The position numbers were made by a program, and so were the translations under genes. Shown in pieces: positions 7,410-64,000 of a stretch of DNA of 64,000 bases (positions are counted from its first letter, which is position 1; each line of letters starts with the position of its first letter). The stretch is from contig BCJC01000001.1 of the NCBI GenBank assembly GCA_001600175.1, forward strand, positions 1,444,065 to 1,508,064. Direction: 5' to 3'. The notes under the pieces are model-generated. The model did no database searches and was not told the DNA's origin. It worked only from the letters and a program-made list of their open reading frames with translations. This DNA is from Erythrobasidium yunnanense. Lineage: Eukaryota; Basidiomycota; Cystobasidiomycetes; Erythrobasidiales; Erythrobasidiaceae.

Positions 7410-7849
7410 GGAGCTCAAGCAGGAAGCTGTCGCCGGCAGAGTACCGCTTCAAGATGACAAAGACGGTCGAAAAGACGGTGGAAGCAACCAAAGAAAATCC
7501 ATGAAACGTAGACACTGTCAGTGTGAAGCTAGCAATAAGTGATGGGATTCAACACTGTCGTTGTAAAGTGAAGCGCAGATGAGGAAGCTTATATTACAGT
7601 CTGCGCATCCTGTAATAAGGTTATATGAAGCCCTTTGTGTAGCGCAGCTCTCTGAAGGCGCAAAAATTTAGAACGTAATGATTGTCCATAATGTGAATAA
7701 TGCGAAATCCTAGCTGCTACGAAGAAGAACGGGATCCAGCCAACTAAAACAAGTAAAGACTGCAAACTATGGGCAACATTATCTAAAAAACCGAAAACTA
7801 CACGCGACTGGAAGAGGATTAGGATGAGAGGATGTCTGAGATGATGTAT
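7410..7849. other. Convergent intergenic region
   Basis: This lies between the 3' ends of two converging genes. It is AT-rich compared with its neighbours and has no long frame with coding character. It probably holds the two 3' untranslated regions. Confidence 0.5.
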
Positions 7850-10800
7850 CTATGGCTTTGCCGACTTCTTCCTTCCAGAGGTACCGAACATTGACGCGAA
7901 GGAATATGAAGGTTTGCTATTACTGCTAGAAGGGCCAGTAGCGCTCGACGTCGACTGTTTCAGCGCTGAACTTCCTACAGCACTACCGTTTTTGCTCAAC
8001 TTAGAAGAAAGCTCGGGCCTGGGTGCGAAGTCTGCATAAAACTGATCGGAAGGTTCGGAATGATTCGTAGTCGTACGGCTCGTAGTCGAAGAAGAGAAGG
8101 AGAGTTGTGGGGTAGAAGATTGTGCGGGGGTCTGTTCGTCTTCGGCTGCTGGTGGATTTGTGTTGCCCTTGCCCTGGAAATTAGGCAATGCAGGTGTCTT
8201 CTTCGCAGCGTCATCTGCACCTAACGTCTTGGAACGACTCCGCTTGAAGAGGCTGAAGGGTGACTTGGACTTTCGAGGAGTCTGTAGTCCGGCGGGTCGG
8301 TTTGCAGCGGCTGCCTGCTGGGGCTGAGCGGCCGACAAAGGCGCACTCGAATGAGCAGCTCGCATCGCGTCCTGCGCAGGCACCTTTAGCGTCTCTGAGC
8401 TGAAGGAAGCGTTTGGAAGTGGTGAGCGGAAATTTGGAGAGGAAGCTCGCGGTTTCACTACGGCGAAGCAGCGTCAGTCAGGTTATACTGCCAGAATCCA
8501 AGAGCACTCACATTGTTGATGCTGAGATTGTCGAGGCGACGCGCGTGGAAGGCCTTCTTCCGTGATGTTGTCCATAACACCGAAGTCCGCGGTAAGCGGA
8601 GTAGCCCCAGGACTCGTCAAGCTGATCGATACATTGTCCCCCTGAGCAGTATGGAAGCTAGTTGAAGGACTAATGACACTCTCCCTTTCCAGGGGAGGGA
8701 TCACATACTTCTTATCCTTCGGAGGTGTTGAAGGGGCTTTTCCTTCTTCTAGACTGTAGATCCGATCAACGAGCTGCTTATTGCTCGAAGAGCGGGGAAG
8801 CTCCGCCGAAGCTGCAGCTGGAGATCCCCCTTGCATTCCATTTGCCAGAGCAGCAAGTCCAGAAGCGAAGGAAGAGGAAGCAGAGGGTGGGAGAGGGATT
8901 TGAGGGGCTCCTTGCGAAGAAGCGATGGAAGATGAATACGATACTGATGCGGGGAGGGGACCCAGTCTAGCTGCATCTGGGGTGAGAGAAAACGAAGAAG
9001 CTGGATTGACAGGAGAGTAGGGCCGAGGTTTGAGTGAATCGAGAGAGGCTGGTAAGATTGTACTGCTTGATGAAGTGATCATGGCGGAAGGAGCCAGCTC
9101 TTGCTGATGCGGAGGTCGAAGTGTCGTGTTACCCTCTTCTTCGCTTGCAGCCCCACTCTCACTCGATACAGATGGCGTAGTGGTGCCTGAATGAGGAGGA
9201 GTAGGCAGCATTTGCTGACCAGGCGGTAGCTGCACCTGTATGGAGGAAAGAGTTGACTTCTTGCTCTTCAGCCTGAGTGCCGAGCCGTCGCTGCTTGATT
9301 GAGGTATGGAGGAGGATCTTGGGGCGTGCACCGATTGCGGTAAAGGCTGAGCAGCGTGGACGTGCACTACAGTCGGCGATTTCGGAGGTTGGACGGACTT
9401 GACATCCAAGTAGCCATTGACTGACGTACTTGCTGTATTCGTGAGGGACGAAGAGGAAGACGGGGAAGAAAAGAGTTGTGCCAGAGGAGATGCCGGGCGG
9501 ACTCCTTCTCCAGAATGCAGGGAAGGAGCTGAAGAAGAGGTAGAAGAGGAGTGTGACAAAATGGGAGCTAAGGGGACTGATAATGCTGCTGGAGAGGATG
9601 AAAGACTACTTGGCGTGAGATTCGTTCCTGCACTATTGCTACTACTGTTCGTAACGTTGCCTGTACTTCTATTACTATTACTGTTGCCATAACTGGCGGA
9701 GTTGGAGAGTGGTGGAGCTGAAGAATTGGGTGTGCACCTTCCGCTAGCGTTGCTATGCGGCTTGCCCGGTGTCGGAAGTGGTGAATGCCCATTTGCTGAA
9801 GATGGTGTCGTGCTGCGTGGTGTGAGAGGAACGCCAGGAGATGCAAGAGGCGTACCGGCAGCCGAGCTTGCCGGCGACCTAGTCGCATGTAGAGGGAGCG
9901 GCGGAACAGGTGGAATGTGTTGACGAGCAGTGGAGGCATGATCGTTTATGGTCAAAGGCATCGCTGAGACTGGTCTGCTCTTGATCTGCTTGCCATTGCC
10001 TTCTACGGGATTTGCAAGTATCTCTTGCGCGCTAGTCGACGAGGTAGATCGCGATAACCATCCACTTAGCGATTTCCGCTTGCTTGCATTCCCTCCTACA
10101 GCTCTTGAGCCATTACTTGCCAAACTGACATTATCCATCGATTTCCGACTCGTCAGAGCAGGCGAGTAGACGCTGCTTCTATCTGCTTTCGGCGATGACG
10201 GGAAAGCAGCTTTCGACATCCTCTTCTCTTTCTTTGCGAGTATTTTCGGGTCGACGGGAATGGGTGGTAAATCCATGGACTGCGCAAGGCTCTTCAAACT
10301 CTGAGTATCGCCGCCGCGTACAGAGTAGGTCGACATGCGCCGATTGTTGCCTAACAGACTTGGCTGAAGAGTGCTTGCTCTCGCGTGCGGTTGGGCACTT
10401 CTTGACCGCACCATCTCAGGGCGCTGCAGGAAGACAGAAAAGTCAGTCGCCTAAGTTGGTTCAGTGTTGTAGACGGTGGATCTACTCACATCAGAGCCTA
10501 TCTCAGACCTCGGCCGCTCATGCCACGAGCGTGCTGCGGGGCTCTTCCTCCCGTCTGCGATTCCAGCCAAATCTCCATGAAAGCTGACGCTCCTCCGCTT
10601 ATCTTTGTTATTGCTGTGGTTCGCCGACGCAGGAGGTGTGATGCTTCCTCCACTACTGCTGCTGTGTATATATGCTGACGAAGCGGCCGAGCTTGCTGAA
10701 GAAGCTTCTGACCAGGTCAATCCTCCATCTATCGTCGTTGCGGTCGAGCTTCCCGAAAGAGCAGGTGATGAAGTTGAAGCTTGCTCGTTCTGCCCGAGCA

Positions 10801-19498: not shown

Positions 19499-20101
19499 AT
19501 GTCTAGCGGGGTCGCTCAGGCTTCCTCTCGCAAACATCCCGCGTATGATCGCAATGCTAGACCCACACTCCCTAGAACACTTACAGCCTCGTCGGTTGCA
19601 TCGGCACTCAGTGCTGCTGGTCAGCAAGCTTATCAATCGATAGGAGCTATCTGGCAGGCCAGACAGATGCCTACAGCCGCGGCCTCAACAGCTATGGACA
19701 GGCAGCGACGTGGATCGCACACCGGCCTGATCTCAAAGGTGCCTCTTTCCCTTGACAGGACAAGCTACGATCCAATGACAGAGTTCAACCTTCAACAATG
19801 GAACGCTTATCGTGCATCTTTCTCGCCAGCGAACAGCTACAAGAATCGAGAGCGCTCTCAAGCTGCCTCAAAGCAGATTGCGTCGAAACCAAGGAATCTA
19901 CCTCCAGCTCCCATTGTCGTATTTCTGGACAAACACGCACGGGAGCGAATCACCATGAACGAGCTTGGTAAAGCGCAATTTTCCCGAAGTGACGGCACGA
20001 AAGTGGACATCCGAGATCTGGAGCAAGTACTGGTTGCATGCACTTACGACAAGGAGTATGCTCTACTAGAGAACGGCACGCTGTACTGCGCCCGTTCTTG
20101 A
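19499..20101 (+). CDS. Small protein of unknown function
   Basis: A single open frame encodes 200 residues. The first 80 are Ala/Ser/Arg-rich. The second half looks like a folded unit, with YDPMTEFNLQQWNAYRASFS followed by APIVVFLDKHARERITMNEL and VDIRDLEQVLVACTYDKEYA. The ATG has a favourable CCAAC context just before it. I do not recognise a family. The pattern Leu-Gln-x-Val-x-Ala-Cys-Thr-Tyr near the end loosely resembles the 'VxAAC...YA' core of the small paralog family found at 47 and 58-61 kb, including 'DGTKVDIRDLEQVLVACTYDKEYAL'-like spacing. A distant relationship is possible but unproven. Confidence 0.6.
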   Translation: MSSGVAQASSRKHPAYDRNARPTLPRTLTASSVASALSAAGQQAYQSIGAIWQARQMPTAAASTAMDRQRRGSHTGLISKVPLSLDRTSYDPMTEFNLQQWNAYRASFSPANSYKNRERSQAASKQIASKPRNLPPAPIVVFLDKHARERITMNELGKAQFSRSDGTKVDIRDLEQVLVACTYDKEYALLENGTLYCARS

Positions 20102-30412: not shown

Positions 30413-31752
30413 ATGGCATCTTCTTCCCAAGCTGTTTCTTCGCCCTCCAAGAAGGTCAAGAAGCACAAGAAGCTGCACCACAAAGCCGATAAAGGGAAAG
30501 AGAAACACCGTCAGACCGACGAAGACTTCGAAGAAAATGCAGAATTTGGCGCAACGATGACCGAGAACTTGGGAGGACATGGCAGCAGCAGCAGCAGTGA
30601 TTTTGTGATTGTTCAATCTGTCATGCGCCTCCCCCTCGCGCCCGTCTTTGCGGAAGATCCATTCGAAGGTGTCCGTCAAGCTCTGGAAAGCTGGATAATG
30701 CGGTGGGCCGGGCAACTATTCACGACATCTTCAAACTGTAGTTCTGATTGTGATTTCTATCAAGATACCTTACTTCCATCGACGCTGTGTTGTTGACGAT
30801 ATCATGGCCTCCGACACTCTTGGAAGAAAATGCACCTTTGACACCTAGTAGCGCGTTTGCAATGGCGCGAGTGCGCTGGCAAGGCGTAGCATTCCGTCCT
30901 CAAATAGCCAGTACATCCAGTGCGCCCGCTTTCCCTCTCACTCTCCTCACGAGCCAAGATAAACTGATCAATTGCATATGTAGGCGGCAAGCTCTCATTA
31001 GCTACCCCATCAGTCGTCTCTCTACTACTGCATAATCTATTCAACGCCTCGATAGCTGCAGAACATATTCCTCCGGAATACGAATGGGATCCCGAAGCTA
31101 TTCTTCCATACTCATTAGCACCTCCACCTATAGCGGGCAGTAAAGCAGCGACTGCAAAGGAGTCTATACAAGCTAGAGATGAGCGGCAACAGCATGTGCA
31201 AGAAGAGGAGGAAGAAGAGAAACACCGGGACCAAAATGAGGAGAAGGAGGCTGCTGAGAATGCTGAAAAGACAATCAAGGATGGAGAGGAGGAAGAAGAG
31301 GAGCAGCATGAACCGATCGAATACGAGGATGCAGTGGAAGAACAAATAGAGGCGGAAGAACAAGAAGAAGAGCAGTATCGGACGGAAAGAGGGTGTTGGG
31401 TGAACAAAGCGACTCGAGAACCGCTAGGAGGAAACGATGGAATCATATCTTTCACGGTCATTGGGTGAGCATCTCTTTCCGCGTCATACCCGCCTTTTTC
31501 AGACCATGCTCATTAACCATCTGTCTCGTCAGCTTAACGATAGCGAACTCGATGATCTCGGTGCATGGCTCGCTACTTCCTGACCCAACAGTCGTCTTCG
31601 CACGCAAAGAGCAGGAGAAGAATGAGCGGATAGCAGAGAAAGCAGCTGGACAGACAAGAAGTACCACTGCTGCGGGAGACGACGATAGCGCAAATATGGC
31701 AGCCGCGAACAATACTACCGCTTCGGCCAAGAAACGCAAGAGGAATCAATGA
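30413..31752 (+). CDS. RPA43: RNA polymerase I subunit A43 (Rpa43)
   Basis: Rpa43 is part of the stalk of RNA polymerase I in the nucleolus and docks Rrn3. Exons 30413-30702, 30765-30910, 30984-31464 and 31533-31752 join in phase to 378 residues. The N-terminal Lys-rich stretch is followed by the Rpb7-like part: MRLPLAPVFAEDPFEGVRQA, then YLTSIDAVLLTISWP. The OB-fold part has VRWQGVAFRPQI, joined by splicing to GKLSLATPSVVSLLLHNLFN. A Glu-rich block of about 80 residues (near 200-290) interrupts the OB fold before WVNKATREPLGG and the strand LTIANSMISVHGSLLPDP. The C-terminus is basic (AKKRKRNQ). Confidence 0.88.
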
Positions 31753-38800: not shown

Positions 38801-41800
38801 TCGACTATGTTTGGAACGGATGGAGCTGTCTTAGCTTTGACAGTATGGCTAGTCAAGTAGCTTACCCGGTAGCGTCCCAGCCACTTGGCGAAAGTATGTC
38901 ACAAAGGCAGTATTCGGTGCATACAGGTAGACTGCGTGAAGTCGGTCTAGATATGGCTGGTGATGCAGGAGGGCTCCGAGCGAAATGAGTATTTCATACG
39001 GCGCTTCGTTGACGGGTGCAAATCCCGAACAGTCCAGCAGTATATCGAAAGGCTCGGGTGGAGAAGATGTGACCATGAGGATGTAGCGAAGAAGGCCTTC
39101 ATAATCGGAGCGATGTTTATGGAGCTTTCGCAACGCGAGACTTATTGCGGGATGGCCAAGCTGGAGAACATTTGAAGTCAGCTGAAAGAACTGTGCTCGC
39201 GGTAATCTACGCGCACCCGTGATCGAAGATCGGTGCGCAGGGATTCAGCCCATATTGAGGGCATATCAAGTCGATGCAATTCTGGCCTATAAAGGTCACC
39301 TGATCTCGTAGGAGCGGCCAGATGGCTTGCCAAGGGCATTGTGTGTTCAGCAGTTTGCTTGATCTGCCATAATATCTCTGTAAGACGAGACCATTGTCGT
39401 TGTGCGTTTGGCACTTGTTCCGATGAGCTTGTCATTGCCGCCTCGCTAGTGAGAACTGAAGTAGTACGTCAGCTCGATGCTACAGCCTCGATGAGGCTCG
39501 CTGACGTTTGCTTCCGATTTGCTCCATGTTGCTCCACAAGAATGTATAGAGCATCATGCTATCCATAGTGTTGCAGATATTGCTTGAGGTCGAAGATCGC
39601 ACTTCGCTGCTTCGATCAGGCGCGGGAGAAGACTGAGAGCAAATCAGTATGTTGAGTACCACGACTCGAAGAGACCTACTGAAATCTGCGTGAGAAAAGA
39701 GGTCATTTCTAGTATGTGCTGCAAAGCCGGCTTAGCAGGTCTCAGGATTATGATTATGTAGAATCAGACTCACGTCCGAGACGAAGGAGTTCAGAGTCTG
39801 CATCCCAGGCTCCTTGAAGCGAATATTGTTGCTTAATGCTTGCATGAGCTGTTAACCAGTGTGAATTAGCTTAAAACTAGTGTGAAGGCCAACGAAAGCT
39901 ACCTTGCTTATGAGTACCAGAGCCCGACGACCTTCGCGCGATTCTTCGGGCAATTCTAGATCCGCGATATCAGGAGATATGATTGCAGGATTGATGAAGC
40001 GCAGGAAGATCCAGCCTCCGATCGACTGCGCAGATGCTCAATATGCGAAACGTTGAGTGTGATTTGCTAGCACCTACGGTATACTCAGAGTCGGGGAAAC
40101 GGTCCTTGACCATGCTCTTGATGTGATAGCACAGGTTCCGCATTGAGCTGTTATGCAGATAAGCAGGGATTCACGATGGTGCAGCTTGACGTACGCTGGA
40201 AGTTCAGACCAAGTAGTGCATATGCGGGACAGGAAGGCCTCGGCAACAAGCTTACGGTGGGTCAGCATAGCACAGTCAGACTACATAAAAGCTATGACAA
40301 AGGCATACCTGCAGTTTAGCGAAGTGGGCATCATCGGGCGAGCTCATTTGATGAACGTCAAGATCCAGAGACCCGAACGATTCCTCCGAAAGCCTGTCCA
40401 GCAAGTCGCCCACTAAGGCGCGGAGGTAGAAGTAGCCTTCTCGACGAGCAAAGATAGTAAGGAGTCTGGATGCAGCCGAGTTGCCCCTGAAAAGTGTGGA
40501 CTCGTGTGCTAGGTAGGGCAGATACTTCAACTGATGCCGCTGGGCGCAGCGACCGCAGGACTCACCAATCTCGCGGACCTCTTTCGCTATGACAGCTTGT
40601 AGTAGTGAATCTAGTATATTATGACGCTCGAAGAGCTCGTAGACGAGATCAAGCAGCACATCGTGTTCGGAGGAGGGAGCAAGCTCGAGCATTGCTAGAA
40701 CCAGCTTCATGTCTGGTGCGCACACGATCTAGAAAGAGCAGCTCGTCAGGGACGTATCTGTCATGCTTAGACCGAGGACCTCTTACTCTCACCAGGGTCT
40801 GTAAGGCCTCTGCGTAATACCAAATGAGATAAGAACGCTTGATAAGGGTTATTTGCTTACCTGACGCTTGAGGCGCAGTAGTTTGGTCCTTTGTGTCGAA
40901 GTACCATCTTTTGAGGCATACAGCAGCCATCTCGAGTTTGGCCAGCTGCAGGCCCGGGTGGTCCGTAAATCGCAAATCGAATGCTGAAATATCTAGAGCT
41001 GGAAGGTTGGCTACAACCAGATTGACGATCGCTGTTTTTACTGCTTCTCCGTGATTTGTACTAGGAGAGGCACCTTGGCCAGTCTGTGAACATCACAGGA
41101 CCATCTTCAGCATTGAATCACAGGATTCAGCGTGTGCATCGCCTACACTGCTCGGGGTCCTGGTTGACAGTATAGGACGGGTCTCACCGACGTTGCTTCT
41201 GGGCTGTGCGGCAGATCAGCAGATGCACGGTGTCGTTTCTTCATGCTTACCTCCGGAGGAGAAGTCAGAAGGTCGCGACATGCAGACAAAAGTAGAGAGA
41301 CGCAGCTTCTTGCAAGTCTGGGGTCGGCAGATCTAGTAGAGCCTGGACTGGTATCTTCTCTCAATGTAGGACGGAAGACGACTAGATCATGCGTGATGAC
41401 AGCTAAGGCTCGAAGGGCTGCTCCCTGAAGGTCCGAGACACTCGTTTTGCCAGAAGGCTAGATACAGTAGTCAGCGTTACTACCCATGCTCGTTGAGAGG
41501 TTTGCATACCTTGTTGACGCTCTCCTTCTCAACATATGTCAGCAGGTGAGCTAATACACTGCACCTAAAAGCTGCATTGGCCGTGCCTTTGTCTTCCGAG
41601 CTGTAGGACTTGAGCAGTTCAATCATTCGGCAGACTTTAGTCTTCAGGCGAGCGCAAGTTGCGCTTGGATCTAGATCCTTGAAGTGGAAAAGGGCTGATA
41701 GCACGATGCCTTCCAAGCGATATTGACGTTCTCGTTCTAGGCTTGGGGATGTCTGCTTGCGCGCAAGCATGCCTAGGAGTACCGACAACGTCTGATCAAA

Positions 41801-46786: not shown

Positions 46787-47490
46787 TCACCACCTAATCA
46801 TCGTCGTACCATACATCTGACTCCGTTGCTCTTTGTGCCCGGGAGGATGTCGCTTCAGTAGTCCGAAACTCGTTATTGCGTATGTCCAGTCTGCCTTGCA
46901 GGCCGCACGCCACACGTCAGGGCTTGCGTTGGTGATTTGCATGATCGTCCCATCGGTCTTCAAGTACTGAAGCTGGCCATTCTGGTTCAGCTTGAGTGAC
47001 TTGTATGTATACTTATTCGCATTGAAAGCGAGTATTTCTATACCCCGCCAGGACTATACGTTGGGAGACTCTCTAAAGCGCTTCGTGTAGATGACGGCAC
47101 GGACGAGGTTATTGCTGTTGTTAAAGGACACCTAGGCTTCGATTCATCAATGCACCAAGAGCAGTCTTTGTATAGAGGGGCACGCCTATGCTGTCCGGCG
47201 GCAACAGGCGAACTTGTCGTGGAGGGAGTCGGCACTTGTTTGACTTCGTTTACAGCAGAGGCGGACGTACTAACGACACTGCATGGTGGTGCCGGGCGGA
47301 CGGAGGTGCTTCCTGAGGTCGCGATAGGTGGCATTGCTGGTAGCGCGAACTGCGAGGGTCGGTTCGATGATGCTCTCACACTCGTTGATGTTGCGCATGA
47401 AGGCCAGCCCAAAGCTGTGGTGCTGGGCCGGGCGATTGTTGGCTTTGCGGAAGCGGCAAGCTTAAGCATGGGAAGTAGTCGTCTGGACAT
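46787..47490 (-). CDS. Small paralog-family protein, member 1
   Basis: The 3' exon (47053-46787, 88 residues) has no ATG near its start. It follows an acceptor at 47054 and reads NKYTYKSLKLNQNGQLQYLK, then TDGTIMQITNASPDVWRAAC and KADWTYAITSFGLLKRHPPG. Its core aligns with the genes at 58-61 kb (NKYALAKITPARDG, AACKLPGEWKYAM; AACNIKDTYAIV). The upstream frame from ATG 47490 is Ser/Pro/Thr-rich with a start like a mitochondrial import sequence (MSRRLLPMLKLAASAKPTIA); the family's other members also have Ser/Pro-rich leaders. I could not find a donor that joins the two parts in phase, so the 5' structure is tentative. Confidence 0.45.
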
Positions 47491-47795: not shown

Positions 47796-49184
47796 TTACA
47801 TATAATGCCAAAATAACTGGCATCCTTCGTTGACGAAGCCCGCTTCTATCTGAGAGCCATCTGCCTCGCAGGTTGGCCTGACGTGGACCCGCGAATGTTC
47901 TTGCTCAAGCGGACAGAACGCTATCTCCTGAAGGGAGGAGCACTTCTTCGCAACTTCTTCCGCAAAACCCAATCGCAGCTGGGCGCCCTTCTCCGAACAG
48001 TCATACGTGAACTTGCCAGTCGAGCCTTCATCAACTTCGTAGCTCTCGATGTCCTCATTGTGATTTATAGCAAGTTGTTGGAGGGAGGGAAAGGTTGAGA
48101 ATGCGTGTCCGTACGATGAAGCTGAGTCGGGCCATTGCCAGCTTCCACAAGGCATATAGGCGCATAGAGTGAGTTGTGTGATCTTATGCGAGCTGAAGAT
48201 CGAGGAGAGACGATGGATATAGGCTGTAGTTGGTGTTTCCCAGGTGGTCAGAGCCAGCCGACGGATGTTTGGGCAGTGAGAGGCGAGAAGGCTCAGGAGA
48301 TGCAGCTGAGCGGATTCAGGTATATTCCAGAAGATGGCCAGATCTTCCAGAGGAGGTGAAGTTTGATCTCCCTGTACAATCTTGTCAGCAGGAGTGCGAA
48401 GCTCTACGGATAGAGGTCGCCTTACCTTCAGGCTCTGCTCGAAATCCTGCATGAGCACATCAATGGGTACCCAAGGGAAGATATCCAGCTTGAGCGTTCG
48501 CAGATTCTTCCACAGTGAAGGAGGCATCCTCAAGATTGTCTGACCACCTGTTCTGACATAATCGTCTTCGCGCTCTGAATCCGCATCATGCACTTCCAGG
48601 CTGAGAGCAAGCGATCGTAAGTTCGGAAAGCATGACAGATCTAGCTTGAGCTGCGAGCCAGAGTATCCAATGGATAGATCTTGTAGAAACGGCATATTTG
48701 TGGTCAAAGGCAGTTCGTACGCATAGACGTTCCGGATGTTGAGCGACTTGAACGTATTAAAGCATCGCAGGATAGCTTGTGTAGTCTTTGGCAGAGCGTA
48801 AAGGGACATGCATAGGTCGACATCCAGGTCTTGCAGCATAAGTACCCTCGCCAGTAGGCGTGAGAGCATCTCATCCATTTCGGCCGCACGTTCGGCTGCG
48901 CCGTCTTGGTCGTACTTGAGACAAGCTGTACTGATTCCCATCAATCGAACATGCTGAAGTCGAGCTCCGAGTTGTTGACTACAAAGGCTATTGCAGCGAT
49001 CCAGACTCTTTCGGCACATGAGTTTGGGGAAGTGTAGATTGAGTTTTCGCCAGATGAGAGGAGTGATGACGCTTGCTAGGGATTTGTTGACCAGACATAG
49101 ACTTTGGAGGGCCGCTTTATCATCGCCTAGCTGATCGAGGATGGCCAGGAGCGTCTCCGCTGGCAGGCTGGAGAAGGTGGGCAT
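47796..49184 (-). CDS. F-box / leucine-rich repeat protein
   Basis: F-box proteins bind Skp1 and choose targets for SCF ubiquitin ligases. The N-terminus is a clear F-box (LPAETLLAILDQLGDDKAAL, then LCLVNKSLASVITPLIWRKL). Leucine-rich segments follow, such as MLQDLDVDLCMSLYALP, NLRSLALSLEVHD and NIRRLALTTWETP. The whole region is one open frame of 462 residues. However, 48372-48425 starts with GTAAGG, ends in ACAG, has a branch-like CTGAC and is 54 nt, so it is probably an in-frame intron; spliced, the protein has 444 residues. The target is unknown. Confidence 0.85.
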   Translation of the reverse strand: MPTFSSLPAETLLAILDQLGDDKAALQSLCLVNKSLASVITPLIWRKLNLHFPKLMCRKSLDRCNSLCSQQLGARLQHVRLMGISTACLKYDQDGAAERAAEMDEMLSRLLARVLMLQDLDVDLCMSLYALPKTTQAILRCFNTFKSLNIRNVYAYELPLTTNMPFLQDLSIGYSGSQLKLDLSCFPNLRSLALSLEVHDADSEREDDYVRTGGQTILRMPPSLWKNLRTLKLDIFPWVPIDVLMQDFEQSLKVRRPLSVELRTPADKIVQGDQTSPPLEDLAIFWNIPESAQLHLLSLLASHCPNIRRLALTTWETPTTAYIHRLSSIFSSHKITQLTLCAYMPCGSWQWPDSASSYGHAFSTFPSLQQLAINHNEDIESYEVDEGSTGKFTYDCSEKGAQLRLGFAEEVAKKCSSLQEIAFCPLEQEHSRVHVRPTCEADGSQIEAGFVNEGCQLFWHYM

Positions 49185-49447
49185 GGTGCAGATAGTGTTA
49201 TGGTTGCTATATGCTCTGTCTTCGCTTGAGTTAGCTGAGCATCAGCTTGTACAGGCTCGTAGGAGCACGATATTGAGCATGAAAGGTAGTCCGCAAGCCT
49301 TTCTCGCAGCATCATCTAGTCGTCGGCATTCATCAGAGTACAGTATGCAACGTCTTTTTGTGTTGGTAGTCCGCTCTTGCGACAGATTTCTTGCTTTCTC
49401 TACTCCAGCTTTTCTTATCGTTGCTTCAACCATTTCCACTTCCAACG

Positions 49448-57019: not shown

Positions 57020-57493
57020 ATGTCGAAGCGATCGCCGTCGTCTCCCGAGTCCTCCAGCAGAGGCAGACTCCGCTCTCCAAGCGTACCGACAGCTGCAACT
57101 CCTCCTGTCCGAAGTAGGCTCCAGATCCAGCAGGATCTCAAGTCTGTACCGCAATGGCTGGCTCCGTTCAAGTGCATATTAGCAAGGTTCGCTGTCTGTG
57201 GCACGCAGGTCATTATCTTGCTCAATGATGCAGAGTGTACGGAGCTCAGGATCCCTGAATTCGATCACTATGCTTGTTTTGAAGCATGTCGCCTCGCATT
57301 AAAACAGCGAGTACTCCAAGATCAAAAGTCTTACAAAGCAAGTCTGAAGCTTTTGGACAAACTCCCCCAAATGCGCAGCGGCGAGGAAGTCGTAGGCTGG
57401 CTTAGTAGCGAGGACTGCGTCTTACCTCATGCCGACGGTACTCTTTGGCAGCCTTTCGACAGATCGTGCCCACCGATCTTGATTAAGAAGTGA
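57020..57493 (+). CDS. Small protein of unknown function, cluster gene A
   Basis: One open frame encodes 157 residues from ATG 57020. A Ser/Arg/Pro-rich leader of about 30 residues is followed by a region that looks folded: LKSVPQWLAPFKCILARFAV, then QVIILLNDAECTELRIPEFD and ACFEACRLALKQRVLQDQKS, ending GWLSSEDCVLPHADGTLW. I do not recognise it, and it does not clearly share the 'AAC..YA' core of the next three genes. A further coding-like frame lies at 57516-57821 but cannot be spliced on in phase. Confidence 0.45.
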   Translation: MSKRSPSSPESSSRGRLRSPSVPTAATPPVRSRLQIQQDLKSVPQWLAPFKCILARFAVCGTQVIILLNDAECTELRIPEFDHYACFEACRLALKQRVLQDQKSYKASLKLLDKLPQMRSGEEVVGWLSSEDCVLPHADGTLWQPFDRSCPPILIKK

Positions 57494-57842
57494 AGTACGA
57501 TGCGGTTCTTAGGGGGTGTACCAGGAGTGGCACTTACGCCGTTTTAAAGAGCGGCAAGCTGGCCACCACGAGCAAGCAAGGCTAGCAGACCTTGGCGATG
57601 TTGAACAGACTACCAGTAGCATAGCACAACTCAAGGAGCATGTCCGGACCCTTTTGCCTGTCGGTCATGACAGTGAGGCAATGATCCGATTCGTCCAAGA
57701 GCCGGTGCCGAAAGAGCATGAAAGGATTCCAAAATACTTAAAAGCGCTCTCGGTTCGCTTCTGTCGCTTTCCTCCTTGTTTTACAACACAGTCAGACAAC
57801 TCGAAGACTACAGCAAAGTAACAGGTTTACATCGGCACAAAC
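57494..57842. other. Region with an orphan reading frame and a duplicated leader
   Basis: A frame without ATG (57516-57821) has coding flavour (LADLGDVEQTTSSIAQLKEH). Its end, about 57744-57840, resembles the sequence at about 59464-59562, just before the next paralog, with a shared core ctacagcaaagtaac. It therefore seems to be a duplicated 5' flank. Confidence 0.4.
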
Positions 57843-58552
57843 ATGTCTCAAAGCAACATAAACCCCCGAAACGTAAGACCTCCAATGCAGCGACGTAGCA
57901 TCACCGGCGATAGCAGCGTCTAGGAAGGCAATACCAGACGACTCCCCCTGTCAAAGTCCAGCGTCACTGGTATAGGAGCGTGCGTAGTAGACCCTCAACA
58001 AGCACCTTCCCCCTCGATCGATCGGCACGAACGCAACGGCTCCATTACCGCTGCTCGACCAGGTCCGCCTTCCAAGCAGCCCTCCTTCTCTGGTTCAGCA
58101 ACGGCTCGACCAGATCTCGACGCCCTTCCCTGAGGACAAGAACCTCGTCGTACTCACAAACAGTGGAAACTGCTCTAGCAGGCCTCGCATATTTACAGTC
58201 TGACCAAGAGTACATGTGGACCCCTGCGCACGGCCAGGCTTTGACAATGATAAGCCCAGCGGACGACGGCATGACTCTCCTCGCTCGCTGGGATAGAGAC
58301 CCTCTTTACCTCAACGTGCCCTACGAGACGGTCAAAGCAGCCTGCAACATTGGTACTGCTGGCGAATGGAAGTGTGCCATCACTGTGCCAAGGCAAGGAG
58401 ACTTGCCAGCCTCCGTGCCAGAGCGATGCTCCTTGAAGAGATTGCCGTCCGGTTACCAGGCAAACTTCCAGGCCGATATTCCAGGGATGGTGGATCGAAG
58501 CTCTCGACTAGTGAATCGGTCAAGTCGTCCGAAGCTATGGAGGTTCTTCTAG
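57843..58552 (+). CDS. Small paralog-family protein, member 2
   Basis: The C-terminal part (58214-58552) reads HGQALTMISPADDGMTLLAR, then YLNVPYETVKAACNI, AGEWKCAITVP and LKRLPSGYQANFQA. It matches member 3 block by block (ITPARDGKTLL, INVDYDTIVAACKL, PGEWKYAM, LRKLPSGWQVAFKA). A 5' part from ATG 57843 uses a 51-nt intron (57873-57923) and reads through PPSKQPSFSG, like PPSQQPSISG of member 3. The two parts are in different frames and a stop lies at 58131. Either an intron near 58090-58190 is missed or this copy is damaged. If damaged, the ATG at 58214 would still give 112 residues. Confidence 0.5.
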
Positions 58553-59659
58553 ATATCATCAGATGAGACAGCTCGCGGGACGTCCCACTAGACACAAAGA
58601 TCACGTATCGCCGCGTGCGCTCCTATCAGATGATATCAAATGTCAATCAGTGTTCTGATTCAACGCCAGGTCTTACTGGTGCAAGACTCTCTTGCATCCA
58701 GGTCCTACAATACCTCATTATTTTCACGAGCCTTCCTGTTTGAACGAGCTTCGCAGCTACTGACAGCGTTTTCAGCAACATCCCCTCGGGAGCCTGGCTC
58801 ATGGCCCGGCCAGGACCTGTCAGTAAATACTCGCTCGACTGCCTCTCGATATGTATACATCGAGCTGGCAGTCATGCGAAGAAGTCAACTGCCATCGGTT
58901 AAGCGTACGGAGTAAGGATCGACTGGGACATGATGGCTGGCCTGGCTGGGTGAATTGCTACAAACGTGTGAGGAGCGAGATACTGAACAGACGAGGTACT
59001 GCTTGCATTCTGCACTTCACGGAATAGATTATTAGAATAGACAAGAGGGATGCGATTGAATCCTTGCCTTGAGCTTACAACGACACTTGGACTTTGTTCT
59101 GGTCGTGCAGCACTGAGCAGCTGCTTACATATCAAGCCAGACATCTACATTCCAGCTGCGGCAAAGGCAATTGACCATGAAGGGCGCGCCAGTCAGGCTA
59201 CAGTGCGGCCCATGAGGCACTTCTAGTCAAACTGGCACGCCATTGGCATTTCTGATTCACCGCTCACATCTCTGCTTCCATTCCTAGTGACGAGTCGTGC
59301 GAGAGACGACTGACAGGTTGGGCCGATGGGCCAGCTCCAGGCATTCAGCGAATATTCAAGGGGATCGCTCAAGCTCCAGCAGATCACAAAGGAGCTAGGT
59401 CACATGCCGCTGCCAACTACCGAGGTTGACGCCCGTTGTCGCTCGCACGCCTTCAAAGCCAGCTGGAAGTCGAGTCTCTGCTTGCTTTCTCCCGTAGTGC
59501 CCACGAAAGCAGACTCAGATAACAAACACTACAGCAAAGTAACTGGTCTACATCTGCACCATCGTGCCCCGTTGTCTCTCTCAATCCAATCAGTCCGTCC
59601 AGCAAGGTGCTCCGGCAGTACCCTCTCCAGCCACAGATCCCTCATTGCAAAACCCCTCA
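58553..59659. other. Spacer between paralogs 2 and 3
   Basis: About 1.1 kb without a supported gene. A frame from ATG 59326 runs across the duplicated leader (59464-59562) and shares YSKVTGLH with the matching reading of the first leader, so it may be an old 5' exon. The remainder shows nothing recognisable. Confidence 0.35.
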
Positions 59660-60292
59660 ATGCCAGAACGTACTTCCTCTGGCAGCGGAAACGGCAGCGG
59701 TCACGATCAACGGCCGTCCTTGTCTGAGTCGCCTAGCCAAGTGGACCTGCATGGAAAACGCACTTGTATTGATCAGGGAATGCGCAAAACCTCCGTCACT
59801 CAAGCAATTACACCACAACCCTCCAGACCTAAGCCACCTTCACAGCAACCCTCTATCTCTGGGTTGAATGACGGACCCGGGCCTCGACGCCGCTCCGCAA
59901 CATCAAGAACCTCTTCAGCTTCAGATGCAGCGCAATCTGCTCTAGAAGATCTCCCAGAGCTCGACCCAGATATAGACGCAATACAGTTTCCAGTCAACAA
60001 GTATGCCCTGGCAAAGATAACTCCAGCTCGTGATGGCAAGACTCTGCTGTATCGCATTCAACGATGTCCGCTCCACATCAATGTAGACTATGATACAATC
60101 GTGGCAGCTTGCAAACTTCCTGGCGAATGGAAGTACGCCATGGTAGAGTCATGCGAGGAGCTCGATACCGCGCTGCCATACGGCGTGCAACTGGGCGGCT
60201 ACTTGAGGAAATTGCCGTCCGGCTGGCAGGTAGCGTTCAAAGCTCGCAACAAATCCCAGGTTAATGGAAGAAGTTCTCTCAGAGGAGTTTAA
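59660..60292 (+). CDS. Small paralog-family protein, member 3
   Basis: The open frame encodes 210 residues from ATG 59660 and extends about 32 codons upstream without an ATG, so the true start could be earlier. A Ser/Pro/Gln-rich leader of about 110 residues precedes LEDLPELDPDIDAIQFPVNK. The conserved module follows: YALAKITPARDGKTLLYRIQ, PLHINVDYDTIVAACKL, PGEWKYAM, and GYLRKLPSGWQVAFKARN. This is the most complete family member and the best query for searches. There is no signal peptide or membrane segment, and no known domain that I recognise. Confidence 0.62.
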   Translation: MPERTSSGSGNGSGHDQRPSLSESPSQVDLHGKRTCIDQGMRKTSVTQAITPQPSRPKPPSQQPSISGLNDGPGPRRRSATSRTSSASDAAQSALEDLPELDPDIDAIQFPVNKYALAKITPARDGKTLLYRIQRCPLHINVDYDTIVAACKLPGEWKYAMVESCEELDTALPYGVQLGGYLRKLPSGWQVAFKARNKSQVNGRSSLRGV

Positions 60293-60795
60293 ACTTGTTG
60301 CGACATGTCGCAAATCTGGCTCAGCTCGCGAGATCTGATTAGACGTAGACATTCCGCACTGCCATCTTTGCAGTCAATCGGAAAATATATAAGGCCAAGC
60401 TGAATCTTGTCCCATCCGTTTAACCATGACCGTACGTTGCTAAAAAAAAAGTGCTCAGCAAATCACTCTCGCGAAATGATAAGCTATCCGCCTTCCGGCC
60501 GAATTCAGCAGGCTTATACAGTCGAAGTGGAGGTCCCAGATGTGTCGTGTCAAAATATGGACGGGGACAGGCGCCTCATGAAGTCTTCAAGGCATGCCGC
60601 CTGGTTTCCACCCGCTCATCACCCGCCAGATCGACATGAAAGGCCAGTCCGCATCAGCTGCGAAACAAAGGTCTGCTCCTCTGGCTTTCACTTCACGCTA
60701 ATACGCATCATGGCTTTCTCTTGACTACACAACTATCAGAACCCTGCCTCGCGTCGCATAAACACAAATACTTACCAAACCCCTGCGATAGCAAC
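60293..60795. promoter_or_regulatory. Region upstream of member 4 with a TATA-like box
   Basis: TATATAAG occurs at 60386-60393. About 40 bases on, ATG ACC at 60426 is followed by GTACGT, a perfect donor, and later open sequence (60511-60669) reads as protein. Member 4 may therefore have 5' exons here, but the frames do not join cleanly to the ATG at 60796. Confidence 0.4.
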
Positions 60796-61215
60796 ATGTT
60801 CAAACGCGCCAAAGATCTACCAAGACAGTATCGTGCTATCTACGCTCTCAGCAGAGTCCCTGTCCGTCAGGCAGGCGATACAATACTCTCAAATATCGAC
60901 GAAGCCTTCGCGGATCGCGTGATGCCTACAAGTGGGGCGGCCCAGGTGGTCATCAATGCCAATACGCTCCAACTCCAGGTGAAGCGGGAGGTAGTCCTAG
61001 CTGCCTGCAACATCAAAGACACATACGCCATCGTCACCGACAAAGTAACGAAGCGACCGACCTTGAAGCAGCTGGAGCCTGGGCACATGCGAGTGCGTCA
61101 GTCCTTCCACAAGCAGTACGATGCACCCGGTCAAGCCCATCCTCCCCGCCAGCGTAAGCATCATTTCTTTCACCGAGCGCAGCCTTCGACTAGGACGGGA
61201 GTACGGAGCGTCTGA
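60796..61215 (+). CDS. Small paralog-family protein, member 4
   Basis: A single frame from ATG 60796 encodes 139 residues. The conserved module reads VVINANTLQLQVKREVVLAA followed by CNIKDTYAIVTDKVTKRPTL, which lines up with LHINVDYDTIVAACKL...WKYAM of member 3 and with AACKADWTYAI of member 1. The C-terminus is basic (HPPRQRKHHFFHRAQ). The Ser/Pro-rich leader of the other members is missing unless upstream exons exist. The function is unknown. Confidence 0.55.
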   Translation: MFKRAKDLPRQYRAIYALSRVPVRQAGDTILSNIDEAFADRVMPTSGAAQVVINANTLQLQVKREVVLAACNIKDTYAIVTDKVTKRPTLKQLEPGHMRVRQSFHKQYDAPGQAHPPRQRKHHFFHRAQPSTRTGVRSV

Positions 61216-61520: not shown

Positions 61521-64000
61521 TCAATCTTCTTCCTTCTTGATACTACCCTGTGCCACCTGCTTCTTGACCTCTTCTAACTCTTTCTTGAGCTTCTTCACCT
61601 CGTTAAGAATCTGCGCAGTCGTAGAAGTCTGGATCTACAGCAGGCAAAGACGGTCAATCGGCGTAATCGGCGTAATCGAGCGCAGAGGAACGCCGAGCTT
61701 ACATCGGGAAACTCTTTGACTAGGTCAGCGAAGGGAATCTTGCTGATGACTCCCTCAGAATCATCGTCGACTGATGGATCCTCATCAAAATCCTCGTCCT
61801 GCTCAGCATGCAAGGGTCAGAATTTTCATATAGCAGCGGAGTAATACTGTGCAGCGCACATAGTCTTCCTGCTCGAGCGAAGCATGTATCTTATGTCTGT
61901 TCCTGTGCTCGGCAAATCTGCTCTCGAAGATCGAAATCGCCAGGCTGGAAGGATGAAGGAGGGACACAAAGCTTGTCAGCAAGCGAGCGCAGTCTTGAAG
62001 CAGGATGAAGATAATTACAGGACAGGGAAGAAGAGGATCGTTAGGAGCCATCTATTGATGCGGGCGTATACATCCTTGGATAGACAAAGCTCGAGTGCTG
62101 TCGTGCGTCCAGGTAATTCAGCTTGGCATTTGCCTCTACTGCTTCGACCGACAACTTACGTAGGAGCGGCAGCTCAATGAGGTTGAATGGAGCCACGTAG
62201 ACGAACTGATCTGGTGCTCGGACTGCAGAGATGGTTTCTAGAGATACGAGAGATGGTTAGAGTCCCTTGTGAATAACTAGTGTTAGCATGTATAGCTAGA
62301 GAAGCTCACTCTGCGCGAAGAACGCCATATATTGCGCGATTGCATCATCTGCGACATTGCTATAACTCGTTCCGAAGAGGGCGATGAGGATGTTGAGCAG
62401 GATGACAATAGTCAAGATAGTCCAGGCCTATCAAGGAGGAGCAGGTCAGCGCTCAAGGCATGCTCAATGGGCATCGGAGACAGACGCACGTAGTATAAGA
62501 TCATGCCATATGGATAGCTCAGCCCTTCATCTGCGTAGGTCTCGAAGTCTGGAGAGCCGAGAAGACCTTGTAGAAGCGAGTGTATAATAGTGCTAGTCGC
62601 GTCGCGTGATTCGTCGGCAAAGTCGAGACCTGTAAGAGCTTGAAGGAAACCCATTGATAGAATGGCCAGCAGAGCGAAAAAACTAGATTCCAGGTGGTGG
62701 TTTTCAGCTTGGCAGATAAGCATACAATGAGACCACGTACATGGCGCTCTCCTTCATCATACGGCCAACGACAATCTGCATGCTTCCGAAGAAAGTGAAG
62801 AGATCGAAGACGGCTGGAATGTCGTAAGAGGCCATTTAGATTTTGATTCGCAAGGAGTTGAAGGGACATCGACCTACTTGTGAGCTTGGCCCATACTAGA
62901 GGGGCTGCGCAGGAGAGAACTTTGAACGCTTCGCGTCTGTACATTACTGCCTTGTCTTCGTCGTGCGTTGCGAGATCCGCGATACGTAACCTACGATTCA
63001 TATCACAAGATCAGTAAGAAACATGCGTGGCTTCGCAGAAGGTCACCTACCCGAGTGCGACAAACGCCAGCGTATAGATTGACAAGCTGACAATCGTCCA
63101 GAAGTTGATAGCTGCAAGCGATCTGATCTTTGAGAATCTGACTATCTCTTCTAGTGTATAGCCGGCCACTTGGATGTAGAAGATATAGTCTTCTAGACCG
63201 AATTCTCGGTCCGGAGTCTGGATTGCTAGTGTATAGCACACGAGGAAGAGGATCCATAGCAGGATGCGGAGGACGTTTTGATAGCGCGGGACAGCGAGTC
63301 TGGATGGGTCTGCGAGGACTTTGCATGTAAGCTTAATGCGAGCGGTAAAATGTGGAAAAAGCCGGCTGACCGAGTCCACCCATCTTCTGCCAGATTTTGT
63401 ACACCACATGGCCCTTCTCATCTCGTTCTTGTACGAGCTATTGCTCATAGTCAGTCAATCTTCTTCGTTCATCAGGGTAGAATCTCCCTCACGTGACCTT
63501 TCCAGAGCGCGAAGATAGTCTTCTGCGACTCTGCGCTCGACAAGAAGATTGGCAGATGCAGATCACTTGCAAGCTCGATAGCCGACAGCGGGAGTGAGAC
63601 GTCTCCATCTGATTCGATTCTGCTAAACCGCGTGCTGAGGATTTGATACTGTTCTTCTGCGGGAAACTTGGCGACTACGCGTCTGGCTGCTACTTCACAG
63701 GCTAGCTTGTGGTTCATGTGCTCATCGTAGTCGGATGGATTTCCTGAAACGCGCGGAAAAAGGTGATGTCAGTCTGACCGCGTGTGAAAAAACTGCAGAT
63801 CTTCTGCTGTGAAGCAGTGTCCGGAGTTGCACTCACTATATGCATCCTTTGCAAACAGAGAACTTGCGACGAGCAAGCAGTACGGGACAGCCTGCTTGAA
63901 GTCTCCCCCTGCCAAGTAGAACGCTTTTATGGCTTCTGGAGTAAGGATGCTTCCGTTCGCAGCTGTGATATCTTCATCTTCTACCTGAAGTGGGAGGAGC
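61521..64000 (-). CDS. YVC1: Yvc1/TRP-like cation channel, 5' end outside the window
   Basis: Yvc1-type channels release calcium from the fungal vacuole. The minus-strand gene runs off the right edge. The most N-terminal part visible is LLPLQVEDEDITAANGSILT, then LAGGDFKQAVPYCLL, followed by LPLSAIELASDLHLPIFLSS and FALWKGHV. Membrane segments include RILLWILFLVCYTLAI, INFWTIVSLSIYTLAFVALG and FFALLAILSMGFLQAL. The pore-region segment is LLQGLLGSPDFETYADEG, followed by TILTIVILLNILIALFGTSY. The C-terminal tail ends in a coiled coil (QILNEVKKLKKELEEVKKQV) and the stop is at 61521-61523. At least six introns are present. The number of residues missing upstream cannot be told. Confidence 0.88.

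Follow-up and report, generated by a model that had tools for sequence, protein, structure and literature searches.

Lineage-restricted, fast-evolving gene families of fungi consist of adjacent and dispersed copies that have diverged strongly from one another, have partly lost their reading frames, and contain no known domain. Two other described systems are relevant to the genes examined here, namely RCC1-type proteins, which carry about 7 repeats with a propeller-blade motif, and OB-fold proteins, in which the structural elements are ordered strand-strand-strand-helix-strand-strand. The window, a stretch of 64,000 nucleotides, comprises positions 1,444,065 to 1,508,064 of contig C1 (BCJC01000001.1) in the Erythrobasidium yunnanense genome (20.9 Mb, 10 contigs). 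Its small related genes are members of a very diverged fungal protein family sharing one small module; members and pieces in the window are designated M0 to M5 and M0b, and two adjacent loci on contig C7 are designated C7-A and C7-B. The family is like the lineage-restricted families in all of the features named above, but its module is shared with longer, constrained three-module proteins encoded elsewhere in the genome. The likeness of “...AC...YAL..dG.L” in the module to the RCC1 motif is superficial: 1 to 3 modules occur here, both structural models have a short helix ahead of the motif, and RCC1 was not among the Pfam matches listed for M0 to M3 and M5 or for M2 to M4 and the C7 pieces. 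The result is a sound description of a new family. A literature search returned nothing on this family, which may nevertheless have been described in print.

M1 (58.2 kb) and M2 (60.0 kb) are clearly paralogs. The module was shared over its full length, at 39% identity across 122 to 124 columns (tblastn restricted to the window, E = 8e-18 and 3e-18; whole-genome search, E = 1.6e-15 and 2.5e-15). The Smith-Waterman score was 173, and none of 2,000 shuffles scored above 58. The paralogy, the shared module, and an LPSG(Y/W)Q box, which is common to M1 and M2, had been proposed in a preliminary description of this DNA and were all borne out, as was strong divergence of the copies. The M1 and M2 DNA was alignable from a 42-base upstream element through into the module. 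The element was 83% identical between the two copies (35 of 42 bases, including a 16-base identical run), compared with 52 to 64% by codon position in the module, and its 32-base core pattern occurred at only these two sites in the genome with ≤3 mismatches allowed. A coding role for the element was rejected, its differences showing no codon pattern by eye; both genes may use it as a promoter or carry it in their 5′ untranslated sequence. Insertions and deletions between M1 and M2 measured 6 and 9 bases in the module and included lengths of 1, 2, and 2 bases in the leader. The predicted isoelectric point (pI) of the M1 module was 7.7. Just 3′ of the M1 stop codon, an imperfect 27-base inverted repeat (78%) was observed at 58552-58578 and 58611-58637.

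Profile searches were run on six-frame open frames from 260 kb of C1 and 20 kb of C7, with reversed sequences as decoys, and other parts of the genome were covered by single-protein searches only. When each window module was left out of the profile in turn, all five ranked first (E = 1.7e-9 to 0.002; best decoy, 1.8), ranks being taken among open reading frames (ORFs) outside the profile with the C7 family loci set aside; the runs are not fully independent, since the 9-row alignment was built with the left-out rows present. The leave-one-out E values were 1.5e-5 for M1, 1.7e-9 for M2, 0.002 for M3, and 8.3e-5 for M5, and M0b, which was absent from the profiles, was found at E = 0.0014 to 0.009 in five single leave-one-out runs. 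A profile of 12 modules searched against the 260 kb of C1 listed only M5, M4, M0b, M1, M2, and M3, and in the approximately 196 kb of C1 flanks it returned no further module at a domain E of ≤5, the limit for listing. Single-protein searches of the genome with M3, M4, and M5 each matched the query itself only, and further diverged copies may exist because the remaining genome was searched only with single proteins.

Profile-profile comparison linked the window modules to one another and to contig C7. The window group matched the C7 group with an hhalign probability of 93% and a score of 36 (best of 100 column permutations, 17.6). Scores of 28.6 were obtained for M1 plus M2 against M3 plus M4 plus M5 (permutation maximum, 16.0; n = 100) and for M4 plus M5 against C7 (permutation maximum, 19.5; n = 100), and M4 plus M5 scored 21.4 against M1 plus M2 (permutation maximum, 15.9; n = 100). 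Together, the sequence comparisons give good support to the family as a whole, with M4 and M5 as the bridge between M1 to M3 and C7. It is very improbable that M1 and M2 are the sole gene pair, with M3, M4, M5, and M0b as chance look-alikes from motif hunting. Such an explanation would account for the marginal pairwise scores of M3, the shuffle-level scores of M0, the origin of M4 and M5 as weak tblastn matches of M3 (E = 0.12 and 9.7, respectively), and the failure of C7-only profiles to find M1 and M3, but not for the first rank of each of the five window modules in leave-one-out runs or for the four of five profile-profile comparisons in which none of the 100 permutations scored as high. 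In addition, the M5 module terminates at the stop codon, as does the last module of both C7-A and C7-B.

Coordinates of family members, pieces, and upstream elements in the window
Feature	Positions	Strand	Description
M5	19499..20101	+	200-amino-acid ORF from ATG; Ser-rich leader and one module (19934-20098)
M4	46790..47053	-	Open frame with complete module; leave-one-out E = 8.4e-8
M0	57020..57493	+	157-amino-acid ORF; Ser/Pro-rich leader and N-terminal region common to C7 proteins
M0b	57490..57576	+	Module piece in another frame, overlapping the end of M0
42-base element	57804..57845	+	Upstream of M1; ends at the ATG of M1
M1	58148..58549	+	Module in open frame, stop codon at 58550-58552; leader disrupted
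42-base element	59525..59566	+	Upstream of M2; GTG where M1 has ATG
M2	59660..60292	+	210-amino-acid ORF from ATG; Ser/Pro-rich leader and C-terminal module (60002-60223 by profile)
M3	60796..61215	+	139-amino-acid ORF with diverged module (60907-61083); pI 10.8

C7-A is a 354-amino-acid ORF from ATG that comprises a Ser/Thr-rich leader, an M0-like N-terminal region, and three modules. In C7-B, the corresponding parts are split over two overlapping frames, and the two loci were 37 to 43% identical. The C7 modules, which follow the N-terminal region, were numbered 2, 3, and 4, each represented by a two-row profile (A plus B). Their pairwise hhalign scores were 22.3, 21.6, and 18.4 against permutation maxima of 16.4, 18.6, and 12.7; none of 60 permutations was as good in any of the three pairings, at hhalign probabilities of just 10 to 36%, and module 2 matched modules 3 and 4 together with a probability of 89%. 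The C7 module 3 profile found M4 at 0.0014 for the full sequence and 0.024 for the domain, with no reversed decoy better than 0.46, a profile built without module 3 recovered it at 4e-4 (C7-A) and 0.004 (C7-B), and a profile of window modules only found it at 0.04 and 0.07. Among C1 matches of a six-module C7 profile, M0b was first (E = 0.02), M4 third (0.22), and M2 fourth (0.32), with the best decoy at 0.78. A low-complexity ORF of 458 amino acids, for which Pfam gave nothing at E ≤ 0.1, was observed upstream of C7-A (7817-9193 of the C7 extract), and the Ser-rich leader of C7-B weakly matched C4:498049-498195 (E = 0.05) and C1:2963467-2963619 (E = 0.26).

A genome search with M0 found the two adjacent C7 loci (E = 9e-5 and 0.2), and a profile of the C7-A and C7-B N-terminal regions found M0 at 8e-7, with the next C1 match at 1.1. 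M0b is the counterpart of the part of the C7 protein that follows the region matched by M0. By these sequence matches, M0 is tied to the family through the C7 N terminus and through M0b immediately downstream. The preliminary description counted a fourth member, taken here as M0 (57.0 kb), as a copy of the module, which was not upheld: M0 showed no signal in pairwise comparison with M1, M2, and M3 (1,856, 993, and 510 of 2,000 shuffles as good, respectively), and its first domain, pooled with the C7 N termini, did not match the module in profile-profile comparison. A fourth module in the C7 proteins was likewise rejected, the N-terminal region having no profile-profile match to the modules. 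The picture of one compact cluster gave way to members scattered over 41 kb of the window (19.9 to 61.2 kb) plus a second locus on C7 with three modules per protein; M4, M5, M0b, and the C7 loci were not on the earlier list.

M3 aligned with M1 at a score of 45 (2 of 2,000 shuffles as good) and with M2 at 37 (24 of 2,000). Its inclusion in the family, as first proposed, is favored by the profile result, whereas the pairwise signal was weak and M3 contains neither a DG turn nor an LPSG box, with LEPG present instead of the latter. Ser/Pro-rich leaders, also part of the preliminary description, were found in M0 and M2 and not in M3, the first 40 residues of which contained 12% Ser, Pro, and Thr. 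In M4, a Ser-rich leader frame running from 47490 down to 47038 overlaps the module frame in a different reading frame, and a short intron could join the two.

The C7 pair is under purifying selection. Over 279 codons, nonsynonymous divergence (dN) was 0.57 and synonymous divergence (dS) was saturated; the bootstrap upper bound for dN/dS was 0.28, a ratio of 0 being entered for resamples in which dS was saturated. In the N-terminal half (137 codons), dN/dS was 0.64/2.88, with an upper bound of 0.50. Constraint on M1 and M2 is looser (dN, 0.59; dS, 0.84; ratio, 0.71; bootstrap interval, 0.45 to 1.07; 120 codons), the ratio being below 1 in 93% of 300 resamples and 0.54 in a 71-codon core. The raised dN/dS anticipated earlier may apply to M1 and M2, whose ratio lies above the C7 bound with an interval that includes 1. 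The claim that the family is young agrees with the M1/M2 dS and not with the C7 pair; because synonymous sites in the latter are near or at saturation, compared with 0.84 for M1 and M2, the family as a whole predates its most recent duplication.

These estimates also bear on whether all C1 copies are functionless pseudogenes, that is, decaying fragments of a multi-module C7-type gene, which is unlikely. The damaged frames of M0 and M1, the M1/M2 interval taking in 1, and the replacement by GTG in M2 of the ATG that closes the upstream element of M1 would be expected of such fragments. Pointing the other way are the open frames from ATG in M2, M3, and M5 and the in-module M1/M2 insertions and deletions, which are multiples of three. 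In neutral simulations from an M2 ancestor, moreover, the module frame stayed open in only 205 of 5,000 runs at half the M1/M2 distance, compared with 664 at a quarter and 2,006 at a tenth.

Frames were open from ATG in M2, M3, M5, and C7-A and were disrupted in M0, the M1 leader, and C7-B. In the M1 leader, an ATG at 57843 is followed by a stop codon at 57921-57923, there are net frame changes relative to M2, and no clean open frame was found through it. The frame of C7-B changes between modules 2 and 3 at about C7:1056193-1056247, and both halves resemble C7-A. Small insertions and deletions are common long-read errors, and the breaks in M0, M1, and C7-B could accordingly be assembly errors or unrecognized introns in copies that are intact, as the apparent constraint on the C-terminal half of C7-B and the short intron that might connect the M4 leader and module would suggest. 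We regard this as unlikely too: the M1 leader has a stop codon together with several frame changes relative to M2, and the C7-B frames overlap and, as judged by eye, span C7-A with no evident gap, so that an intron would hardly fit there.

No recognized domain was found, in agreement with the preliminary description. Pfam scans of M0 to M5 and the C7 pieces (M0 to M3 and M5 at E up to 1; M2 to M4 and the C7 pieces at E up to 10) gave only matches below curated cutoffs (lowest E values: ELM2, 0.024, in the M1 frame; Sbi-IV, 0.037, in C7-A), and NCBIfam gave a single match far under its cutoff (M5, E = 0.01, 15 of 395 bits). Best matches were at chance level in PHROGs (E = 0.055 for M3 and 0.088 for M4) and in PDB (0.11 by sequence with C7-A and 0.37 by profile). 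Bacterial and archaeal genomes and viral contigs contained no close C7-A relatives in a low-sensitivity search with six short peptide patterns. The pI was 9.1 to 10.8 in seven of eight sequences, and seven of eight had no transmembrane-like stretch, M0 having one moderately hydrophobic 19-residue stretch (1.82). An N-terminal hydrophobic signal was absent by crude hydropathy (no 11-residue span among the first 40 positions above 1.25) from the six ATG-started sequences (M0, M2, M3, M5, C7-A, and C7-B), M1 and M4 being module frames without a true start.

AlphaFold2 models from window sequences alone had a predicted local distance difference test score (pLDDT) of 56 for M2, based on 4 rows, and of 72 for M5, based on 5 rows. 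The two were predicted to fold as strand-strand-strand-helix-strand-strand, with a further C-terminal helix of low confidence in M2. This predicted order is that of the OB fold, and the basic charge would fit nucleic acid binding; some of the weak Foldseek matches to the models are of OB type (proteasomal ATPase N-domains, IF-1, eIF-1A, and HypC). It is nevertheless decidedly unlikely that the module belongs to a known superfamily of small barrels, for example the OB fold, and has diverged beyond recognition by sequence libraries. At about 55 residues, the modules are small for an OB fold, and neither sequence nor structure gave a significant match: Foldseek searches of PDB returned none at E ≤ 0.001, listed probabilities were below 0.5, and many matches were to other folds.

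The family most likely encodes basic modular binding proteins that act inside the cell, and its genes most likely undergo birth-and-death turnover. Mostly basic and presumably intracellular, the proteins would consist of a Ser/Pro-rich leader (except in M3) followed by 1 to 3 modules of about 50 to 75 residues, each probably built from three strands that include a DG-type turn, then a short helix with A-C at its end, and lastly a hairpin of the form W-x-Y-(A/V)-(I/L)...G-x-L-(R/K). The C7 loci may retain an older multi-module function, and the C1 copies may be derivatives, damaged or with a single module, that keep duplicating, diverge from one another, and then decay. Taken as a whole, this explanation, in which an unnamed modular fungal family undergoes birth-and-death turnover with C7 as the older branch, is on balance slightly favored. 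More tentatively, and with less than even confidence, we suggest an undescribed module of about 50 to 75 residues (strand-strand-strand-helix-strand-strand) in 1 to 3 copies, with one locus conserved and another in rapid birth-and-death turnover, a pattern that a nuclear protein would be expected to show if it took part in genetic conflict or if its partner changed fast. Our best guess at what the modules do, prompted by the weak OB-type Foldseek matches and the basic charge, is that they are small barrel-like units binding nucleic acid or a protein partner, to which the basic leaders would add charge and perhaps nuclear targeting; this idea is rather doubtful.

Several results weigh against the favored explanation. 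In most leave-one-out runs a presumed chance match reached E = 0.03 to 0.08, which makes the membership of M3 and M0b no more than moderately secure. With M1 and M2 both left out, M2 ranked second (E = 0.0045) and M1 sixth; with M1 to M3 left out, M2 ranked fourth, M3 ninth, and M1 143rd; and with M1 to M5 left out, two presumed chance matches led, followed by M4 (0.28), M0b (0.75), and M5 (2.5), with M2 73rd and M1 and M3 unlisted. An unrelated-looking C7 frame was found by the C7 module 3 profile at E = 0.017, with a domain E (0.024) equal to that of M4, and a profile of C7 modules 3 and 4 found M4 at 0.22 and M0b at 0.5, with the best decoy at 0.47. Module 4 fared worst: its profile alone listed no window member among the 260 kb of C1 ORFs, it was not convincingly found by a profile built without it (best, 3.5), and its comparison with M1 plus M2 was not significant (8 of 100 permutations as good). 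When the N-terminal region of M0, C7-A, and C7-B was compared with the modules, 43 of 60 permutations were as good against M1 to M5 and 4 of 60 against the C7 modules. The survival counts in the neutral simulations make recent decay of M1 compatible with the data, the confidence of the M2 and M5 models was low to moderate, and the Foldseek search with them gave no match at the threshold used.

The case shows that small orphan genes with no apparent relation to one another can be diverged parts of a single module family, the longer members of which are under clear purifying selection. A likely origin is thereby suggested for these orphan genes, and C7-A offers a protein for tests of structure and function.

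Other candidates were rejected as members. The minus-strand frame at 30848-30937 of the window (AHWMYWLFEDGMLRLA), which reached E = 0.05 to 0.6 in several profiles, was presumed to match by chance because it is an alternative frame of a longer ORF and aligned over 14 to 17 residues only. The matches at C1:1514407 (E = 0.03 to 0.15), within another gene that we take to be WD-repeat coatomer-like, and at C7:1048400 (E = 0.017 in one profile) were also attributed to chance, and the sequence at 41168-41425 of the window (FMLTSGGEVRRSR) was too short and weak. Elsewhere in the window, a minus-strand ORF at 47799-49241 contained an F-box-like domain (E = 1.1e-5), and a TRPY1-like cation channel gene was observed on the minus strand at approximately 61.6 to 63.9 kb (extent by eye), where 63472-63765 matched LHD_TRPY1 (E = 1.7e-22).

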